The notes below the pieces were generated by a model. That model had not been told where the DNA came from, made no database searches, and worked only from the letters and a program-made list of their open reading frames with translations. A stretch of 64,000 nt of DNA from Tropicibacter sp. Alg240-R139 (GTDB taxonomy: Bacteria > Pseudomonadota > Alphaproteobacteria > Rhodobacterales > Rhodobacteraceae). Position numbers and translations under genes: made by a program. The DNA lies in contig NZ_UNRA01000004.1 of the NCBI RefSeq assembly GCF_900537075.1, forward strand, positions 256,572 to 320,571. The letters are read 5' to 3'. Below are positions 1,716 to 8,715 of this stretch, in pieces (positions within the stretch are counted from its first letter, which is position 1; each line of letters starts with the position of its first letter).

Positions 1716-1900
1716 ATGAACAAGGGCATTCGGTTTACCGATGAGTTTAAGCAGGACGCTGTGGCGCAGATTTTCGAGAAGACTGGCAACCTGAGCACGG
1801 TCCAACTGCTGCTCGGTCCCACGAAGATGGATAGCACCGTCCGGTTTCTCGGAGTTGAATAGGAAGATGCCTTGGCTATCGCAGACCTGAATTATCAGTA
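1716..1900 (+). pseudogene. chimeric remnant: IS3 OrfA start joined to tyrosine integrase end
   Basis: An ATG opens a 48-codon frame. Its first 18 residues (MNKGIRFTDEFKQDAVAQ) read as the start of an IS3-family OrfA transposase. The frame then changes without a break into the C-terminal end of a tyrosine recombinase: TGNLSTVQLLLGPTKMD, then STVRFLGVE, a TAG stop at 1860-1862, and EDALAIAD in the same frame. In intact relatives known to me the corresponding motifs are LLGHTK and VRYLG. Here the conserved His is Pro and the Tyr nucleophile is Phe, so no activity is possible. This is debris from two mobile elements, not a gene. Confidence 0.65.
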
Positions 1901-1928
1901 TTTTTACTCGGGTCTGCAACGAATTTTC

Positions 1929-2321
1929 TTACTCTGGCCGCTTCCAGTTCTGACCGTCGCAGAAACCAGAAACACAGCCTTCTACTCTGATAGCAGTTTT
2001 GCCCAGTGTAACGCGTGCGTCGTAGTCAGCGTCAGTTAGAACGTCATAAACCGTTCCGTTTTCCCAGCGGTTTTCCTCGACACGTTCCATGTCCCAGAAA
2101 ATGGCGCGCCCGATCAGTTCCTGTGCTGCCGGATTGTCCGAATTTACAACTTCGGTCACTGTGCTGCACAGGTTTTCGTCGGCATCTTGGCATGGGTGGA
2201 TGTCCACCAACAAATGAGCACCAGTGTCATCCGTGATCGTGCGCCAGATGCCGTATGGTTCGTTGGCGAGAGCCGGTCCAGCGAGCATCAGCGCCACAGC
2301 GCCGACATACAGTTTTTTCAT
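1929..2321 (-). CDS. DUF2147-like secreted protein
   Basis: A 130-residue protein with a signal peptide (Lys-Lys at residues 2-3, hydrophobic core, ALA cleavage site near residue 19). The mature part has the features of the DUF2147 family: GIWRT near the start, a short Cys-containing strand (IHPCQDADENLC), W-x-N-G-x-V-Y-D-V, and a C-terminal G-C-V-S-G-F-C-D-G-Q-N-W segment. It is probably a small periplasmic beta-barrel or lipocalin-like protein of unknown role. The four cysteines could form two disulfides. A strong purine-rich ribosome site (GAGGAGGAGATC on the minus strand) precedes the ATG. It lies just downstream of the large fusion gene on the same strand, 55 bases away, and may be read from the same message. 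Confidence 0.8.
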   Translation of the reverse strand: MKKLYVGAVALMLAGPALANEPYGIWRTITDDTGAHLLVDIHPCQDADENLCSTVTEVVNSDNPAAQELIGRAIFWDMERVEENRWENGTVYDVLTDADYDARVTLGKTAIRVEGCVSGFCDGQNWKRPE

Positions 2322-2376
2322 GATCTCCTCCTCTTGGATCTGAGTGTTCTGTGAGTGATGGGCTTAAGGGGCCACG

Positions 2377-5300
2377 TCATTCTGCAGCCTTTCGCCCTTG
2401 TGTACCGGCCAGCGTTCCTAAACGTGCGGCAATGTCGTGCAAGGCCTCAGCGGCGTCCGGAACGATACCGGCCCAGCTTTTGAACCCGTGGATCAGGCTG
2501 CTGTATTCGACATAATCAACCGGTACGCCCGCATCCCTTAGCGCGGTGGCAAATTCCTGTCCTGCGTCACGCAACGGATCAAAACCTGCGGTCGCAATCA
2601 ACGCAGGCGGCAGGTTTGCATGACTGTCCGCCTTTAGTGGTGAAATTCGCGGATCATCCCAATCAACGCCCTCGGGGATGTAGTGGCGCGCAAACCAATC
2701 CTGCAACGTGGCATCCAACCCGAACCCTTCGGCAAACTCGATGGACGATGGCGTTTCATGCCCCGCAGCGACCGAAGGATAGATCAACGCGCTCCAGGCA
2801 CATTGCGGACCGCCTGCGTCGCGCAACAACTGAGCAGTGACGGCCGCCAGATTGGCGCCTGCGGAATCACCTCCTACGCCTATGCGCGTCGCATCCAGCC
2901 CAAGCGCGGCTGCGTTCCGAACCACCCAGAGATATGCGTCTTGGGCATCCTCGACAGGCGCGGGGAATTGGAACTCGGGTGCGCGGCGGTAGTCGACAGA
3001 AACCAGTGTTACACCGCTGCCCGCAGCAAGGGCGCGGCAGGCATTGTCATGTGTGTCCAAATCCCCGATCACCCATCCGCCGCCGTGGAAATAGACCATT
3101 CCAGCCTCTTCCGAACCCGCTTTGTCTGGCCTGTAGACGCGATAGTTCAAGGTTCTGCCGTCAAGTTCCATAGTCCCGTTTTCAACCGCGCATACGATCG
3201 AGATCGGAGCTTCCAATCTTTCGACCATCGCCGAAAACAGCACGCGGGCGTCCACGGCGGACATCTCGTGCATCTTGGGCCCATTCTTGGCGTCCGGCGA
3301 TGACAAGATTGCCCCGATTGTGGAATCCAGTTTACGTGCCAGTGCCAGGTCTTTGTTTACTTGTCTTCTGGGTGTCCAGTTGTGGGGCGGTTTGCCCTTG
3401 TTGGCGGTGAGTTTGGTCAGAACAAACTCTGCTTCATCCACATGGCTCATCTGGTTCGCGAAATCCTGTGCGTTGCCCGGGTAAAGCGTTTCGATGCGGC
3501 CGTTTGATCCGATGTACCAGCTGTCACACCCGGACGCCCAAACGGTGTTGTCCAATTGCGATTGCATCGCGTCACCGAACCCAAGACACGTCTCTTTGCT
3601 CACGGACACCAGGCGATCTCGCCCGGCCAGTTTGATAACGTCAACGATCCAATCCACCGATTGTTCGATCAGATACACAACCGAAGTTGTGCCTACTCCG
3701 GAGTTGGGGCCGGTCACCAAGAAATAGTTCGGCAAGTCCGGAACCATGCTGGATTTATAGGCGTCTGCGCGGGTCTGCCAGATGTCATCCAAAGAACGGC
3801 CACGTTGGCCGGTTACACGGAATGCTGACCTCTGCCCCTCGATGTCAAACCCGGTCGCATAGATGATTGCATCCACCTGCGTCAGTGTCTCTTTGGAGAT
3901 GACACCAGTCGGTTCAATTGCCGTGATCGGCGCTGTTTCCAACGCGACGTTGGAGCGATTGAGCGTTGGCAGGAAATCGTCCGATATCAGGATGCGTTTA
4001 CATCCAAGTTCGTAGTCCGGCATCAGCTTTTCAGCAAGGTCAGGATCGTCGATCTGCGACCGCATGTGAGCCTTGATTTCAGCCTCGGCAACCCTTCGGA
4101 TCGCGGGGCTCACGACGATCGGGTAAAGCCGGGTGTCCTTGTCTTTGAACTGTTCATCCCGAACCGCCTGCATTTGGGCGAGATCTCGGCGGAAGCTGTG
4201 TTTTTGCTCGTCGGAATAGGCAAAATCCTGACGCGCTGCGATATAGTTGGGCGTGCGCTGAAATAGTGTGACTTGCGCTGCGGTTTTCGCCAGTTGGGGA
4301 ACTGCTTGGATCGCGCTTGCCGCGCTGCCAATAACAGCGATGCGTTTGCCGGACGGGTCGAAACCCTCGTCCCATTCTGCTGTATGCATTTCTATGCCGT
4401 CAAAATTCTCGCGCCCCGGCAATTCGGGAATGAACGGCTTGTGCAACCCGCCAGCCCCGTTCACGACAAAGCGCGTGCGAACTTCGGAACCGTCTGCAAA
4501 AAGCACGATCCACAGTGAGCTGGATTCGTCGAATTGAAGGTCCGTTATCTCGCAATTCAGGCTTATCCGGTCCCGCACGCTATATTTGTCGGCGCAATGC
4601 GCGATATAGGACTGAATCTCTTGTTGGGGCGCGTAAAACCGGCTCCAGTCGGGGTTCATCTCGAAAGAGTAACAATAGAAATGCGAGGGGATGTCACAGG
4701 CGGCCCCAGGATAACGGTTGTGCCACCAAGTCCCACCAATGCCACTGCTTTTTTCAAAGACACGAAAGTTAACGATGCCACTTTCCTGCAGTTTGATTGC
4801 CGCGCAGACACCGGAAAATCCAGCACCGATAACTGCCACATCCAACGGTTCCTGTCCGCTGGCAATCGCATGCTCAAGCGCATAATCTTCAATGCTGGTG
4901 CTTGCTTGCAAACCAGTCTCTATTTCGGCGAACCGGCCAGCAACAAAAGGCGCAAGATCGGCTTGAGTGAAAATGTAAAACCGGCCCTTGCCGATTTGAT
5001 CCAGGGTCCATTCCGCGACCACGTCGGGTTCTAATCCCGCGTCGATTGCGGCTGCCACCTGCCGATCCTGATCCGTTTCTTCGCGTGTGGCATCACCTTC
5101 TTTGTTCGAAGGACTCTCTTGGGCGCTTTTGTGAATGTCCGTGCGTACCCAGCCGGGGCACAAAAGGCCAACACCAATATCTGTCGATGCAAATTCCTGG
5201 CGTAGCGCTTCGCTATAGCCTACAAGACCAAACTTGGAGGCATTGTAAGGGCCACCACCGGGCAAAGCGAGATGCCCAGCCATGGACGCTGTATTCAGGA

Positions 5301-5709
5301 TAAAGCCACCCTCGTTTTGCGCTTTGAAAACGGGGACGAACACTTCGGTACAATGTACCGCGCCCATCAAGTTGATACCAAGAATCCAATTCCAGTCTTT
5401 TATGGGAATTGTTCCTGTCTGCCCCCCCAAGGACACACCGGCATTGTTGGCAAGAAAATGAACCTTGCCGAACCGCGCAAGGGTGGCTTCGGCGGCCCGG
5501 CCTACCGAAGCCGGGTCCGAGACATCACATTCTACCCACGCAGCATCAATGCCTTCGCTGCAAAGCATGGCACAACTTGCAATCAGTTTGTCGCCGTCAA
5601 TATCCGTGAGCATGACGCGCATGCCGCGCCGACCCAGCGATTTGGAAATTGCCAAACCGATGCCATTCGCGGCTCCCGTGACAAATGCGATTTTACCTTC
5701 GAATTCCAT
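2377..5709 (-). CDS. three-domain fusion: SDR dehydrogenase, Baeyer-Villiger monooxygenase, esterase
   Basis: A single 1110-residue frame holds three complete enzymes. Residues 1-285 are a short-chain dehydrogenase: TGAANGIG at 11-18, NNAG at 88-91, and Ser142, Tyr155 and Lys159 as the catalytic set. Residues 289-790 are a type I Baeyer-Villiger monooxygenase: GAGFSG at 295-300 for FAD, GGTWWHNRYPGAACD at 325-339, the fingerprint F436-x-G-x3-H442-x3-W446-D447, and a second nucleotide fold GSAASA at 461-466. Residues 815-1105 are a hormone-sensitive-lipase-type hydrolase: HGGGW at 875-879 (oxyanion hole), GDSAG with Ser949, Asp1044 and His1074. All catalytic residues are present. Read in order, the domains would turn a secondary alcohol into a ketone, then an ester or lactone, then a hydroxy acid or an acid plus alcohol. 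A LysR gene is divergent and a symporter gene lies beyond it. The substrate is unknown; a cyclic, terpenoid or steroid-like alcohol is a guess. Confidence 0.92.
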   Translation of the reverse strand: MEFEGKIAFVTGAANGIGLAISKSLGRRGMRVMLTDIDGDKLIASCAMLCSEGIDAAWVECDVSDPASVGRAAEATLARFGKVHFLANNAGVSLGGQTGTIPIKDWNWILGINLMGAVHCTEVFVPVFKAQNEGGFILNTASMAGHLALPGGGPYNASKFGLVGYSEALRQEFASTDIGVGLLCPGWVRTDIHKSAQESPSNKEGDATREETDQDRQVAAAIDAGLEPDVVAEWTLDQIGKGRFYIFTQADLAPFVAGRFAEIETGLQASTSIEDYALEHAIASGQEPLDVAVIGAGFSGVCAAIKLQESGIVNFRVFEKSSGIGGTWWHNRYPGAACDIPSHFYCYSFEMNPDWSRFYAPQQEIQSYIAHCADKYSVRDRISLNCEITDLQFDESSSLWIVLFADGSEVRTRFVVNGAGGLHKPFIPELPGRENFDGIEMHTAEWDEGFDPSGKRIAVIGSAASAIQAVPQLAKTAAQVTLFQRTPNYIAARQDFAYSDEQKHSFRRDLAQMQAVRDEQFKDKDTRLYPIVVSPAIRRVAEAEIKAHMRSQIDDPDLAEKLMPDYELGCKRILISDDFLPTLNRSNVALETAPITAIEPTGVISKETLTQVDAIIYATGFDIEGQRSAFRVTGQRGRSLDDIWQTRADAYKSSMVPDLPNYFLVTGPNSGVGTTSVVYLIEQSVDWIVDVIKLAGRDRLVSVSKETCLGFGDAMQSQLDNTVWASGCDSWYIGSNGRIETLYPGNAQDFANQMSHVDEAEFVLTKLTANKGKPPHNWTPRRQVNKDLALARKLDSTIGAILSSPDAKNGPKMHEMSAVDARVLFSAMVERLEAPISIVCAVENGTMELDGRTLNYRVYRPDKAGSEEAGMVYFHGGGWVIGDLDTHDNACRALAAGSGVTLVSVDYRRAPEFQFPAPVEDAQDAYLWVVRNAAALGLDATRIGVGGDSAGANLAAVTAQLLRDAGGPQCAWSALIYPSVAAGHETPSSIEFAEGFGLDATLQDWFARHYIPEGVDWDDPRISPLKADSHANLPPALIATAGFDPLRDAGQEFATALRDAGVPVDYVEYSSLIHGFKSWAGIVPDAAEALHDIAARLGTLAGTQGRKAAE

Positions 5710-5757
5710 GCATCATCCTCAACTCACAATTCAAAGTTTGACCTGCTAACCTTATTT

Positions 5758-5782
5758 GTAAACACTGTAAGTATTGCTTACA
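5758..5782. promoter_or_regulatory. LysR operator-like box, copy 1
   Basis: The pattern is GTAAAC-N3-GTAAG-N2-TTG-CTTAC, with a perfect inner inverted repeat TGTAAG-N5-CTTACA at 5766-5782. It lies 49 bases upstream of the fusion gene start and 12 bases before the LysR start, in the divergent promoter region. The same pattern recurs at 8180-8203 before the symporter gene. Position and symmetry suit the binding site of the adjacent LysR protein; binding itself is inferred. Confidence 0.7.
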
Positions 5783-5793
5783 GAGGACTCGAA

Positions 5794-6741
5794 ATGGATG
5801 GTCTTAACTCTCTCAGGCAGCTCGTCGCGCTTGGTGACACTGGCAATTTTCGTTTGGCTGGTGAGGCTTTAGGTGTTTCCCATTCGGCCGTGAGCCAAAC
5901 AATACGCAAGCTTGAAGATAACTACGGTGTCGAGCTGTTTGATCGGACCCGAGGGCGCACAGTGCCCACGGCTTTTGGCGAAAGACTGATCGAATCGGCG
6001 AGACGTTCATTGAACGACATGGAAACTGCGGCGCGCGATCTGCAACTTATGGAAAGCCATCAAGGCGGCAGGCTGGTCATCGGAGTGGACCCCGCGGTCA
6101 GCGAAAGCCTGCTTTCTTTGCCTCTTGCGAAGATGATGAACAAATATCCATCGTTGCAATTTACCGTCCTCGCGTGCAATCGCGCCCGTTGGGAAAAGCG
6201 CCTGCGCAACCGCGAAATCGACATGTATCTTGGCCTGCAACCGGATCGCGAGGAGGAGGTGTTGAGCTATCGCAAACTTGTTCTTCAACCACCTGAGTTG
6301 TTTTGCCGAGCTGATCACGATCTGCTGTCGAAACCACGTATTCTCATCCATGAACTGCGGCATATGTCGGTGATAGGTGGGGATGTTCCTGACTGGTTCC
6401 TGTGGCGTATTCTTGATGCGTATCCCGATGCATTCTCGGGCCTTCAAGACCTGCGCGGTACGTTTCTGACCTCGCAGGATTTCGGCTTGCTGCGTCAGCT
6501 TTTGTTAAGGACCAACGCGTTGGCCATATTGCCCGAATTCGTTGTCCAGAAAGAGATCGCCAAGGGTCTTGTGCACAAGGTCGAAATCCAAGGGTGGCCG
6601 TTTAGCGAAGGCACCATATCGGGCGTTGCTGCATGGCTGCGTGAACGCCCACTGCCACCGGCGGCCAAACAGCTTTTGTCCCAAGTGCAGCGCATGTTGG
6701 ATCAATCCGTCTACCTGCGTCGCAACGGGAGTGAAGCCTAG
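5794..6741 (+). CDS. LysR-family transcriptional regulator
   Basis: A 315-residue regulator. Residues 1-62 are the winged helix-turn-helix (SLRQLVALGDTGNFRLAGEALGVSHSAVSQ, here broken by the recognition helix), followed by a linker helix and a periplasmic-binding-like effector domain (R-L-V-I-G-V-D-P-A near residue 93). The frame is open much further upstream, but this ATG has an AGAGGA ribosome site six bases before it and gives the normal LysR N-terminus. It is divergent from the fusion gene and shares an operator-like box with it; its last codon overlaps the symporter stop codon by four bases on the opposite strand. It probably controls both neighbours, with an intermediate of the fusion pathway as a plausible effector. 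Confidence 0.92.
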   Translation: MDGLNSLRQLVALGDTGNFRLAGEALGVSHSAVSQTIRKLEDNYGVELFDRTRGRTVPTAFGERLIESARRSLNDMETAARDLQLMESHQGGRLVIGVDPAVSESLLSLPLAKMMNKYPSLQFTVLACNRARWEKRLRNREIDMYLGLQPDREEEVLSYRKLVLQPPELFCRADHDLLSKPRILIHELRHMSVIGGDVPDWFLWRILDAYPDAFSGLQDLRGTFLTSQDFGLLRQLLLRTNALAILPEFVVQKEIAKGLVHKVEIQGWPFSEGTISGVAAWLRERPLPPAAKQLLSQVQRMLDQSVYLRRNGSEA

Positions 6742-8135
6742 CCTTTTCCAAGAGCTTGGAGGTTATCGCTATGTTCGGAACGGGTCAGTGTGAACCCCTT
6801 TAGCACCCAAACAGAGATCACGTAGAGCACCGCGATCAGGATGACGTAGGGGATGGCGATTGACTGCATCGTACTCTGGTCGATCAGCCTGCCACTTTGC
6901 GCTCCGAGGCTGAGCATAACGCCCGACACAAAGATTCCGAGACCCGTCACGACCTTGCGCGTGAAGGAAAACGCTGCAAAATACATGCCTTCCGCGCGGT
7001 GACCGGTGCGGATTTGATCGACTTCCACAAGATCAATTGTCATCGAAAACTTCACAGCGCTCAGCAGAACCGTCACGGTTGTCGTCAGGAAAGTCAGGAT
7101 CGCGACCACGTAAAACAATTCCGAGCTGCGCGGCGCTGGAAGCAAGTCAAAGTATTTTCCAACAATCAGGGAAACGGACAACACCAGTGCCATCCAGCTT
7201 AGTGTGACAGCTACAGATTTCTTTTCAAAACCGCGCACGACAAATGCAGTGGACAGGTACGCGATGATCGCTGCAGGTACCATCGTCAATGTCACGAGGG
7301 CGATTTGGGTCGAACTTAGGCCGAAGTAAAAGATCCCGAAATAAAGTTGCAACGACATGGCAATGCCCGACACAAGGTTGGTGCACAGCGAAGCGAGAAA
7401 AACCGACCTAAAGGAACTGTCGGCAAAGATATGCCCCACATTCTTGAAGAACCGGAATCCGTAACCTTGGCTACTGGTGTCGGGGGTGCTGAAAACCTTG
7501 ATGGAACGGTGGGTTCCAACCGATGACATCAACATCGTCACCACCATGACAAGCGTGGCCCAGAAAGCGTATCGTGTATAACCCTCAGGGTTCAGAATGC
7601 CCGGATCATAATCCACCGAATCCGGCAAGAACACCTGATAGACAACCACCGCCATGAAGACCCCACCCAGCCAGCCGAACATAAGGCGCAAACCGGTGAT
7701 TGCCGTTCGTTTGTCGTAGTCATGAGAGATTTCACCGATCAACGCCGAGTTGGGGATCTCAAAGAAAGTAAGCGTCAGTCGAACCGCCACAGACATGAAT
7801 GTCAGATAGAGAAACAGCATGAACTCGCTGGTCTCGGGCGGAGTCCAAAGCAGGTAATAGGTGATCGCAATCGGTACAATTGAGGCATACATGAACGGAT
7901 GTCGTCGCCCCCACCGGGAAGTGCAACGATCTGACAAGTAACCGGCCCAGGGGTCTGAAACTGCGTCAACCAACATCGCAATCAACAAGGCGATCCCGAC
8001 CAGATACGCCGGAAGCCCTAGCACCTGGTTGAAGTAGATCATTAGGAATGTCGAGAACCCGTTGTCCTTGATCCCATAGGCAATCGATCCGATGCCGTAT
8101 GAAACAATACCTCCCAAACCCACTTTTTGCGTCAT
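6738..8135 (-). CDS. GPH-type (MelB-like) MFS symporter
   Basis: A 465-residue inner-membrane protein with about twelve membrane segments. The N-terminal half carries the glycoside-pentoside-hexuronide:cation symporter features: D-A-V-S-D-P-W-A-G-Y-L-S-D-R, where the two Asp residues align with the cation site, followed by RWGRRHPFMY. It is convergent with the LysR gene (four-base overlap of stops). Its promoter region carries the same box as the fusion gene, so it probably imports the substrate of the fusion enzyme or exports a product. The family usually moves sugars and glycosides, but some members sit in gene clusters for other compounds, so the substrate is open. Confidence 0.88.
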   Translation of the reverse strand: MTQKVGLGGIVSYGIGSIAYGIKDNGFSTFLMIYFNQVLGLPAYLVGIALLIAMLVDAVSDPWAGYLSDRCTSRWGRRHPFMYASIVPIAITYYLLWTPPETSEFMLFLYLTFMSVAVRLTLTFFEIPNSALIGEISHDYDKRTAITGLRLMFGWLGGVFMAVVVYQVFLPDSVDYDPGILNPEGYTRYAFWATLVMVVTMLMSSVGTHRSIKVFSTPDTSSQGYGFRFFKNVGHIFADSSFRSVFLASLCTNLVSGIAMSLQLYFGIFYFGLSSTQIALVTLTMVPAAIIAYLSTAFVVRGFEKKSVAVTLSWMALVLSVSLIVGKYFDLLPAPRSSELFYVVAILTFLTTTVTVLLSAVKFSMTIDLVEVDQIRTGHRAEGMYFAAFSFTRKVVTGLGIFVSGVMLSLGAQSGRLIDQSTMQSIAIPYVILIAVLYVISVWVLKGFTLTRSEHSDNLQALGKG

Positions 8136-8179
8136 GGCCGTTCCTCCCGGTCGCCATGATGTCCAAGGGGTAAATGTTC

Positions 8180-8203
8180 GTAAACTGCGTAAGGGTTGCT
8201 TAC
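8180..8203. promoter_or_regulatory. LysR operator-like box, copy 2
   Basis: GTAAAC-N3-GTAAG-N2-TTG-CTTAC, located 45 bases upstream of the symporter start. It matches the box at 5758-5781 at 19 of 24 positions, and all differences fall in the two spacers. Orientation relative to the controlled gene is the same in both cases. Confidence 0.68.
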
Positions 8204-8715
8204 TGGAGCGCAGGGACGGTGCGATAATGAACCTTATAACCAGAAAGCCTGCATCCTGACTGACTGCTTTCTTTGACGATCAGTTCTCATCATTTTGCGA
8301 AGAAGAGCGACTGCGCGCCTTCGAATTAAGCGCGAATTGCAGTGAACATCCACTTCCCACCCGACGGATCGACGCTTTCGATTGGACGAAAACTCTGCAA
8401 TCCAAATGTCCGCTTCCAAGCCGGAGACCGGAGTCACTAACACCCGCAGCGAACTTCCGCTGTCCGCCCGAGGAGCAAGAAAGCCATGTCTGCTTTGGAC
8501 TGAGAGCAGCCACTCCGGCGCCCGTGAGAATGACTGTTTCGTCCCGCATAACGGACAAACACAGCCGTTGGTCTTCTGGCTCGTTTTGACAAGGTTGCGT
8601 GTTGTGCAGCCGTTTTGAAGTGACGTGTCGCCCAGGTTTCTCTTTCAATGACGGTTCTTGCCAAGTCGCTCACCAACGGTCACACCGGGAGCTGTAAATC
8701 TGAAGAGGGTAGGCC
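8204..8715. other. gene-free stretch with repeat-like debris
   Basis: About 510 bases between the symporter promoter and the RarD-like gene. Open frames exist on both strands but none reads like a protein or has a convincing start. Imperfect recurrences of TGTCCGCTT-like words (near 8404, 8459 and 8486) suggest decayed repetitive DNA. A purine-rich ribosome site for the next gene (GAAGAGGG) lies at the right end. Confidence 0.45.

Follow-up and report, generated by a model that had tools for sequence, protein, structure and literature searches.

A natural SDR-BVMO-esterase fusion in Tropicibacter sp. Alg240-R139, a probable trifunctional catabolic enzyme

In Mycobacterium tuberculosis a short-chain dehydrogenase/reductase (SDR), a Baeyer-Villiger monooxygenase (BVMO) and a hydrolase are encoded by neighbouring, separate genes (sadH, mymA and lipR). 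In Tropicibacter sp. Alg240-R139 enzymes of these kinds appear as three domains of one protein of 1110 amino acids (aa), the product of a fusion gene in a 64,000-nucleotide stretch of contig NZ_UNRA01000004.1 (positions 256,572 to 320,571; this whole stretch is called the window below). Separate genes for the three steps, described as well known in a sequence-only reading of the window, were indeed found as neighbouring trios in several genomes and plasmids (genomes G558, G336 and G1026, R. opacus plasmid pR1CP1 and Marinobacter adhaerens plasmid pHP-187). These trios encode the same enzyme kinds as separate proteins, but unlike the fusion they vary in gene order and often have a hydrolase of another family: pR1CP1 has the order hydrolase, SDR, BVMO, and pHP-187 is annotated with SDR, BVMO and CocE/NonD hydrolase, the order of the fusion.

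Two of the three steps have been fused by engineering, with a dehydrogenase of another family than the SDR described here. In these constructs an alcohol dehydrogenase (ADH) joined to a type I BVMO, cyclohexanone monooxygenase (CHMO), takes an alcohol to a lactone; they differ from the present fusion in being man-made and in using an NADP-dependent dehydrogenase, redox recycling and a separate lipase, which was added to relieve product inhibition (Aalbers and Fraaije 2017, PMC5624969). The ADH-first order gave higher ADH activity, according to a second source (PMC9354712). For SAR202 bacteria, a dehydrogenase, then a BVMO, then spontaneous or esterase/lactonase opening has been proposed to act on deep-sea organic matter, in a scheme that has separate enzymes and type II BVMOs (PMC5395668). 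No description of a natural SDR-BVMO-esterase chain was found in the open full-text literature, which leaves subscription papers mostly outside and is weak evidence of absence. In BVMO cascades built by hand, with ADH in front and lipase behind, lactone product inhibition was limiting (PMC5624969), and the natural third domain could play the role of the added lipase. The natural triple chain and a relative with another esterase fold together make it possible to ask if there is a gain in linking the steps and how such chains evolve from operons. The fusion would also suggest that roseobacters have a pathway for alicyclic or branched alcohols.

We propose, with a probability of roughly two in three, that the fusion is a trifunctional catabolic enzyme running a cascade from alcohol to ketone, ester and acid. 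The N-terminal SDR would oxidise a secondary alcohol to a ketone, probably with NAD+; the BVMO in the middle, which probably uses NADPH and O2, would insert oxygen next to the ketone and so yield an ester or lactone. This would be split by the C-terminal esterase, of the hormone-sensitive lipase (HSL) type, into an acid plus an alcohol, or into a hydroxy acid, to be followed by beta-oxidation via acyl-CoA. A LysR regulator and an MFS_2 transporter encoded next to the fusion would serve the same pathway. We infer the shared substrate, the order of steps, the cofactors and the fate of the product from sequence comparison.

The uninterrupted 1110-codon frame claimed at 2377-5709 was found with correct coordinates. 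It lies on the minus strand, on which point the sequence-only reading was silent, with its ATG at 5709 and its stop codon ending at 2377, and the stretch is free of any N. The claimed SDR, type I BVMO and HSL-type hydrolase were all three found in the single chain by Pfam and by motifs, and the chain is laid out as follows (the SDR limits, aa 1-250, are our choice):

2377..5709, minus strand: SDR-BVMO-esterase fusion gene, 1110 aa (Pfam, motifs, full-length 86% copy in Falsiruegeria mediterranea M17)
4960..5709, minus strand: SDR domain, aa 1-250, with TGAANGIG 11-18, N113, S142, Y155 and K159 (Pfam, motifs, solved relatives)
4849..4959, minus strand: linker 1, aa 251-287 (dN/dS 0.125)
3400..4848, minus strand: type I BVMO domain, aa 288-770, with the fingerprint at 436-447 (Pfam, motifs, CHMO alignment)
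3214..3399, minus strand: linker 2, aa 771-832 (dN/dS 0.159)
2380..3213, minus strand: HSL-type esterase domain, aa 833-1110, with HGGGW, GDSAG, D1044 and H1074 (Pfam, motifs, solved relatives)

Pfam matches on the chain are adh_short at aa 6-198 (E 4.6e-45), Pyr_redox_3/FMO-like at about aa 291-498, and Abhydrolase_3 at aa 871-1076 (E 4.9e-70). All 11 residues that had been named as catalytic or diagnostic are in place (S142, Y155, K159, F436, G438, H442, W446, D447, S949, D1044 and H1074). The SDR domain follows the classical pattern TGxxxGxG, NNAG and N-S-Y-K, with TGAANGIG at 11, NNAG at 88 and N113 in addition to S142/Y155/K159, and its best solved relative by sequence is 5ig2 (E 8e-51). 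The BVMO domain carries the first Rossmann motif GAGFSG at 295, GGTWWHNRYPGAACD at 325 (pattern [A/G]GxWxxxx[F/Y]P[G/M]xxxD) and the fingerprint FDGIEMHTAEWD at 436 (pattern FxGxxxHxxxW[P/D]). Its best solved relative is the CHMO of Thermocrispum (E 8.9e-75), which, like steroid and phenylacetone monooxygenases, is a single enzyme of ~540 aa homologous over nearly the whole domain. The alignment reaches residue 522 of the 541 of Thermocrispum CHMO, so that the part beyond the fingerprint is present; one stretch stays unaligned (217-254 of the 515-aa query), where the CHMO is ~30 residues longer. K571-R572 is aligned with the KR pair of that CHMO, whose Arg we take to be the catalytic arginine of CHMO and phenylacetone monooxygenase. 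The hydrolase domain has HGG at 875, GDSAG at 947 (GxSxG), D1044 and H1074, in agreement with the HSL (Abhydrolase_3) pattern HGGG, GDSAG, Asp, His. Its best solved relative, 1evq (E 1.3e-69), belongs to the EST2 group; carboxylesterase EST2 (1qz3; 1evq) and other HSL/family IV esterases, which are single enzymes, align at HGGGW, GDSAG, DPL and HGF. The NCBIfam equivalog LipP1 hormone-sensitive lipase gave 322.2 bits, below its curated cut-off of 350, which makes the domain a relative and not a member.

A full-length copy of the chain, 86% identical and extending 21 residues further at the C end, is present in Falsiruegeria mediterranea M17 (L009, NZ_ONZG01000006.1). By the Nei-Gojobori method, which is rough here with only two sequences (window and F. 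mediterranea), dN/dS is 0.102 for the whole chain, 0.072 for the SDR, 0.112 for the BVMO and 0.100 for the hydrolase domain; the whole chain and all three domains are thus under purifying selection. The linkers have dN/dS of 0.125 (linker 1) and 0.159 (linker 2) and identities of 84% and 81%, compared with 86-87% in the domains. A sequencing error joining separate genes had been named in advance as a possible refutation, and the fusion survives it: an artefact of assembly or sequencing is excluded for practical purposes by the same frame in an independent genome of a second species at 86% identity, by the dN/dS of 0.10 and by the absence of any N. Motifs and purifying selection together uphold the reading of three complete enzymes in one selected chain.

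The third position is where a more distant relative differs. In G237, another genus of the same family, SDR and BVMO share one frame and are 50% (SDR) and 58% (BVMO) identical to those of the window, and the third domain, in the same frame, is PF00144 Beta-lactamase (E 2.3e-65) with the SxxK motif as SCTK. Among solved structures it has five matches at E 1e-25 or better, each named as an esterase or ester hydrolase (carboxylesterase, esterase A or fenoxaprop-p-ethyl hydrolase; best E 8.5e-83). Predicted esterases of two unrelated folds thus come third after the same SDR-BVMO pair. This swap is our best argument for ester hydrolysis at the third position; coincidence would explain it poorly, and a requirement for such hydrolysis beside the BVMO would explain it well. 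The neighbours of the G237 fusion are genes for an AMP-dependent ligase, MFS_2, LysR, and then acyl-CoA dehydrogenase, SDR, thiolase and DUF2147; of these, the divergent LysR, MFS_2 and a DUF2147 are shared with the window. The ligase, acyl-CoA dehydrogenase and thiolase genes point to catabolism, probably of the acid that would leave the esterase. The Falsiruegeria cassette itself has none of these three genes.

SDR and BVMO in one frame were found only in the genome of the window (G000), in one of the same genus (G295, probably that of F. mediterranea) and in G237. No further chain of this kind turned up in four genomes of the genus (BVMO part), in two overlapping samples of the family with 295 and 394 genomes, in samples of the class (289) and the phylum (398), or in 185 genomes from another class of that phylum, the one to which G707 belongs; in the rows listed, the candidates scored per genome numbered at most 5 for the first family sample and the class, 3 for the phylum, 2 for the second family sample and 4 for the class of G707, so that misses are possible, and rows lacking a locus were judged by open-frame length alone. 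Among 72,556 plasmids, through which alone Actinobacteria were sampled, no place covers 80% of the query. A contig scan by exact 8-residue words found one locus. The pairwise BVMO fusions mentioned in the sequence-only reading do exist: Bradyrhizobium sp. CB82 (WP_283043299.1, 825 aa; 32% identity) and G1043 (38% over the BVMO part) have BVMO followed by Abhydrolase_3 in one chain, like the last two domains of the fusion and without the SDR, and G799 (L095) has a hydrolase match and then a BVMO in one 919-aa open reading frame (ORF). At L117 3028-5505, a BVMO-hydrolase fusion is annotated as alpha/beta hydrolase fold protein, which hides its monooxygenase half, and among the matches listed some Burkholderia glumae plasmid records look like it.

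Several candidates did not hold. In the loci of G092, G525, G727 and G823 (open frames of at least 750) SDR and BVMO matches never fall in one ORF, and the same was seen for G514 and G334 (also at least 750) by tblastn matches alone; the 919-aa ORF of G799 has no SDR match. Apart from G000 and G237, these seven genomes make up all rows of such length in three of the surveys. G137 had an open frame of 1081 in one survey and 486 in another, and its DNA reads 486 with a stop just before. Nocardia farcinica H7, a single piece in tblastn, is no fusion, since its BVMO ORF stops at L115:4599, short of the HSL match that begins at 4798. Roseomonas H15 has two coding sequences.

Gene neighbours were counted at 80 unfused BVMO loci, whose flanks reach 1.5 kb at most; 79 remain when L112, a locus retrieved by an SDR+BVMO query, is set aside. 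On the same strand 30 of the 80 have an SDR, 23 a panel hydrolase and 14 both (29, 22 and 13 of the 79), and on either strand an SDR is found at 32 of 80 (31 of 79). From 37 SDR matches in the 4.66-Mb genome we roughly estimate that chance alone would place an SDR within 1.5 kb, whichever its strand, in ~3% of cases. The hydrolase panel includes domains from some of the surveyed loci, the relatedness of genomes makes the counts less than independent, and loci were available for the best-ranked matches only. The 14 loci with all three genes on one strand have the order BVMO-hydrolase-SDR in 8, and SDR-BVMO-hydrolase, BVMO-SDR-hydrolase and SDR-hydrolase-BVMO in 2 each. As to domain order among the fusions, SDR first and BVMO second is conserved in all three, and conservation stops at the third domain, which is HSL in two and of the Beta-lactamase fold in G237.

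A BVMO tree of 83 rows unites the three fused BVMOs in a single clade (100/99), whose sister group (G215, G092, G137) is unfused, as are the next ones out, G519, G558 and G336. In G519 the SDR and BVMO genes share 4 bases, 4 bases separate the SDR from the nearest BVMO ATG in G215, and in G137, whose SDR is of another subfamily, a TGA stands immediately before the BVMO ATG; G092 has no SDR in its flanks. In most of the nearest unfused relatives, then, the SDR and BVMO genes directly adjoin, and we propose that the fusion grew from an operon in which they already did so. The HSL gene of G558 and G336, where the gene order is BVMO-HSL-SDR, is the sister of the fused HSL (97/94) in a 21-row tree with long branches and two short rows left out, which makes it equally likely that an esterase of the ancestral operon was kept in Falsiruegeria and replaced in G237, or that there were two separate gains. 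The order SDR-BVMO-hydrolase as three genes is seen in G1026 (alpha/beta hydrolase) and L089; in G525, whose BVMO is distant (29%), matches to SDR, BVMO and HSL follow one another in this order in three frames. The strict type I fingerprint is present in 53 of the 83 rows, so that the BVMO group is broader than the textbook pattern. A GxAxxA form of the second dinucleotide-binding motif occurs in 20 of the 83, all three fused BVMOs included; its other carriers include G215, G092, G137, G519, G558 and G336. This form (BVMO rows L010-L091 and L112) looks like a subfamily feature, and strict BVMO patterns would miss such members. Two smaller observations concern the sister group. At L102 6233-7738 of G137 a 501-aa frame has an SDR domain from ~255 on and ends directly at the BVMO start codon; its first half, for which Pfam gives nothing at E 1e-5, may be an artefact of the assumed start site. 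At L032 3647-4474, a second BVMO of G215 is accompanied on the other strand by a match 48% identical to the G237 Beta-lactamase-fold esterase domain.

Several results weigh against the proposed cascade. An SDR on the same strand is missing from 50 of the 80 unfused loci, and no hydrolase of the panel was found in the flanks of the close unfused relatives G215, G092, G137 and G519. Both the BVMO and the transporter are present in two of four genomes of the genus and were not found in the other two, which makes the function dispensable. In the BVMO the second dinucleotide-binding motif, GSAASA at 461 (GTGSTG in Thermocrispum CHMO), does not match the strict GxGxx[G/A]; the filing as type I is kept because of the fingerprint and the overall homology to solved BVMOs (E 8.9e-75). 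In the SDR, D36 closes the second strand and TGAANGIG contains no basic residue, features that suggest NAD+ as its cofactor; R485 and K571 suggest NADPH for the BVMO. The SDR would then not supply NADPH to the BVMO, so that the two are probably no self-recycling redox pair with NADP(H) sharing as in the engineered redox-neutral ADH-BVMO fusions. A whole-chain structure prediction made from two sequences had a mean pLDDT of 29.5 and was discarded. The domain order fits the chemistry alcohol-ketone-ester-acid, as had been pointed out; as evidence it is weak, since the order varies among the 14 unfused trios, only 2 of which share it, and the commonest order also fits an SDR acting on a released alcohol.

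That last possibility, in which the BVMO would act first on an imported ketone, the esterase would cleave the ester and the SDR would oxidise the released alcohol, is rather unlikely in our judgement. It can call on the BVMO-hydrolase-SDR order of 8 of the 14 trios, G558 and G336 among them, and on the fact that chain order need not mirror reaction order; it has to contend with the SDR standing first in all three fusions (a weak point, as order is not mechanism) and with the separate SDR gene directly before the BVMO in G519, G215, G137 and G1026, the first three of which have no panel hydrolase in their flanks. A detoxifying or lipid-modifying enzyme in place of a catabolic one is less probable still: apart from the transporter the Falsiruegeria cassette has no catabolic gene, and the three families are those of mycobacterial mymA-lipR-sadH, for which such a role has been proposed, whereas the acyl-CoA ligase, acyl-CoA dehydrogenase and thiolase genes around the G237 fusion speak for catabolism, and the transporter and LysR fit the use of a substrate. 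Compatible with the catabolic cascade, and evenly balanced in our view, is the idea that fusion only secures equal amounts and joint inheritance of three pathway enzymes, with no channelling. The lower conservation of the linkers and the existence of the same trio as separate genes elsewhere favour it, and the G237 esterase, being linked to the chain as well, hints at an advantage of linkage itself. A natural, domain-swappable assembly line, in which an SDR-BVMO chassis has taken on esterases of at least two unrelated folds as its last domain, is a tentative extension that we hold to be somewhat less likely than not; hydrolysis near the BVMO would there relieve product inhibition or retain a labile ester.

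The fusion gene is part of a small cassette, of which the remaining features are:

1888..8235, no strand: four-gene cassette of DUF2147, fusion, divergent LysR and MFS_2 (blastn against the F. mediterranea locus)
1929..2321, minus strand: small DUF2147 protein, last gene of the cassette (profile match; kept in relatives)
5766..5782, no strand: palindrome TGTAAG-N5-CTTACA between LysR and fusion (sequence comparison)
5794..6741, plus strand: divergent LysR-type regulator (Pfam-type match; relatives in three genomes)
6738..8135, minus strand: MFS_2 (GPH-type) transporter (profile match; kept in relatives)

When the window was compared with the 16-kb F. mediterranea locus L099 (blastn, E 1e-5), 1888-8235 was the sole similar part of the 64 kb (84.8% over 6350 bases). 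The flanks differ, being ribonucleotide reductase and a TPP enzyme in F. mediterranea and PfkB and EamA in the window. With the same content, different flanks and patchy presence in the genus, the cassette looks like an accessory unit and seems to move as a block. Its G+C content is 0.545 (1929-8135), compared with 0.578 for the window. Searches of the window for promoter-like sites (3 vs 4.1 expected) and terminator-like sites (10 vs 7.1 expected, sd 2.9) gave numbers near chance, repeats were short, imperfect families only, and PADLOC gave no family at E 1e-5.

The regulator is 89% identical to its counterpart in F. mediterranea, 57% in G237 and 46% in G519, and the transporter 94% in F. mediterranea and 61% in G237. 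Between LysR and the start of the SDR, the window, F. mediterranea and G519 share the palindrome GTAAG-N5-CTTAC, of which G237 has a one-change form, and TGTAAG-N5-CTTACA with at most one mismatch occurs once in the window, where 0.02 occurrences are expected; 5766-5782 is likely the LysR operator. The small DUF2147 protein (1929-2321 in the window; L107 16601-16987) accompanies the fusion in three genomes and is 92% identical in F. mediterranea and 49% in G237.

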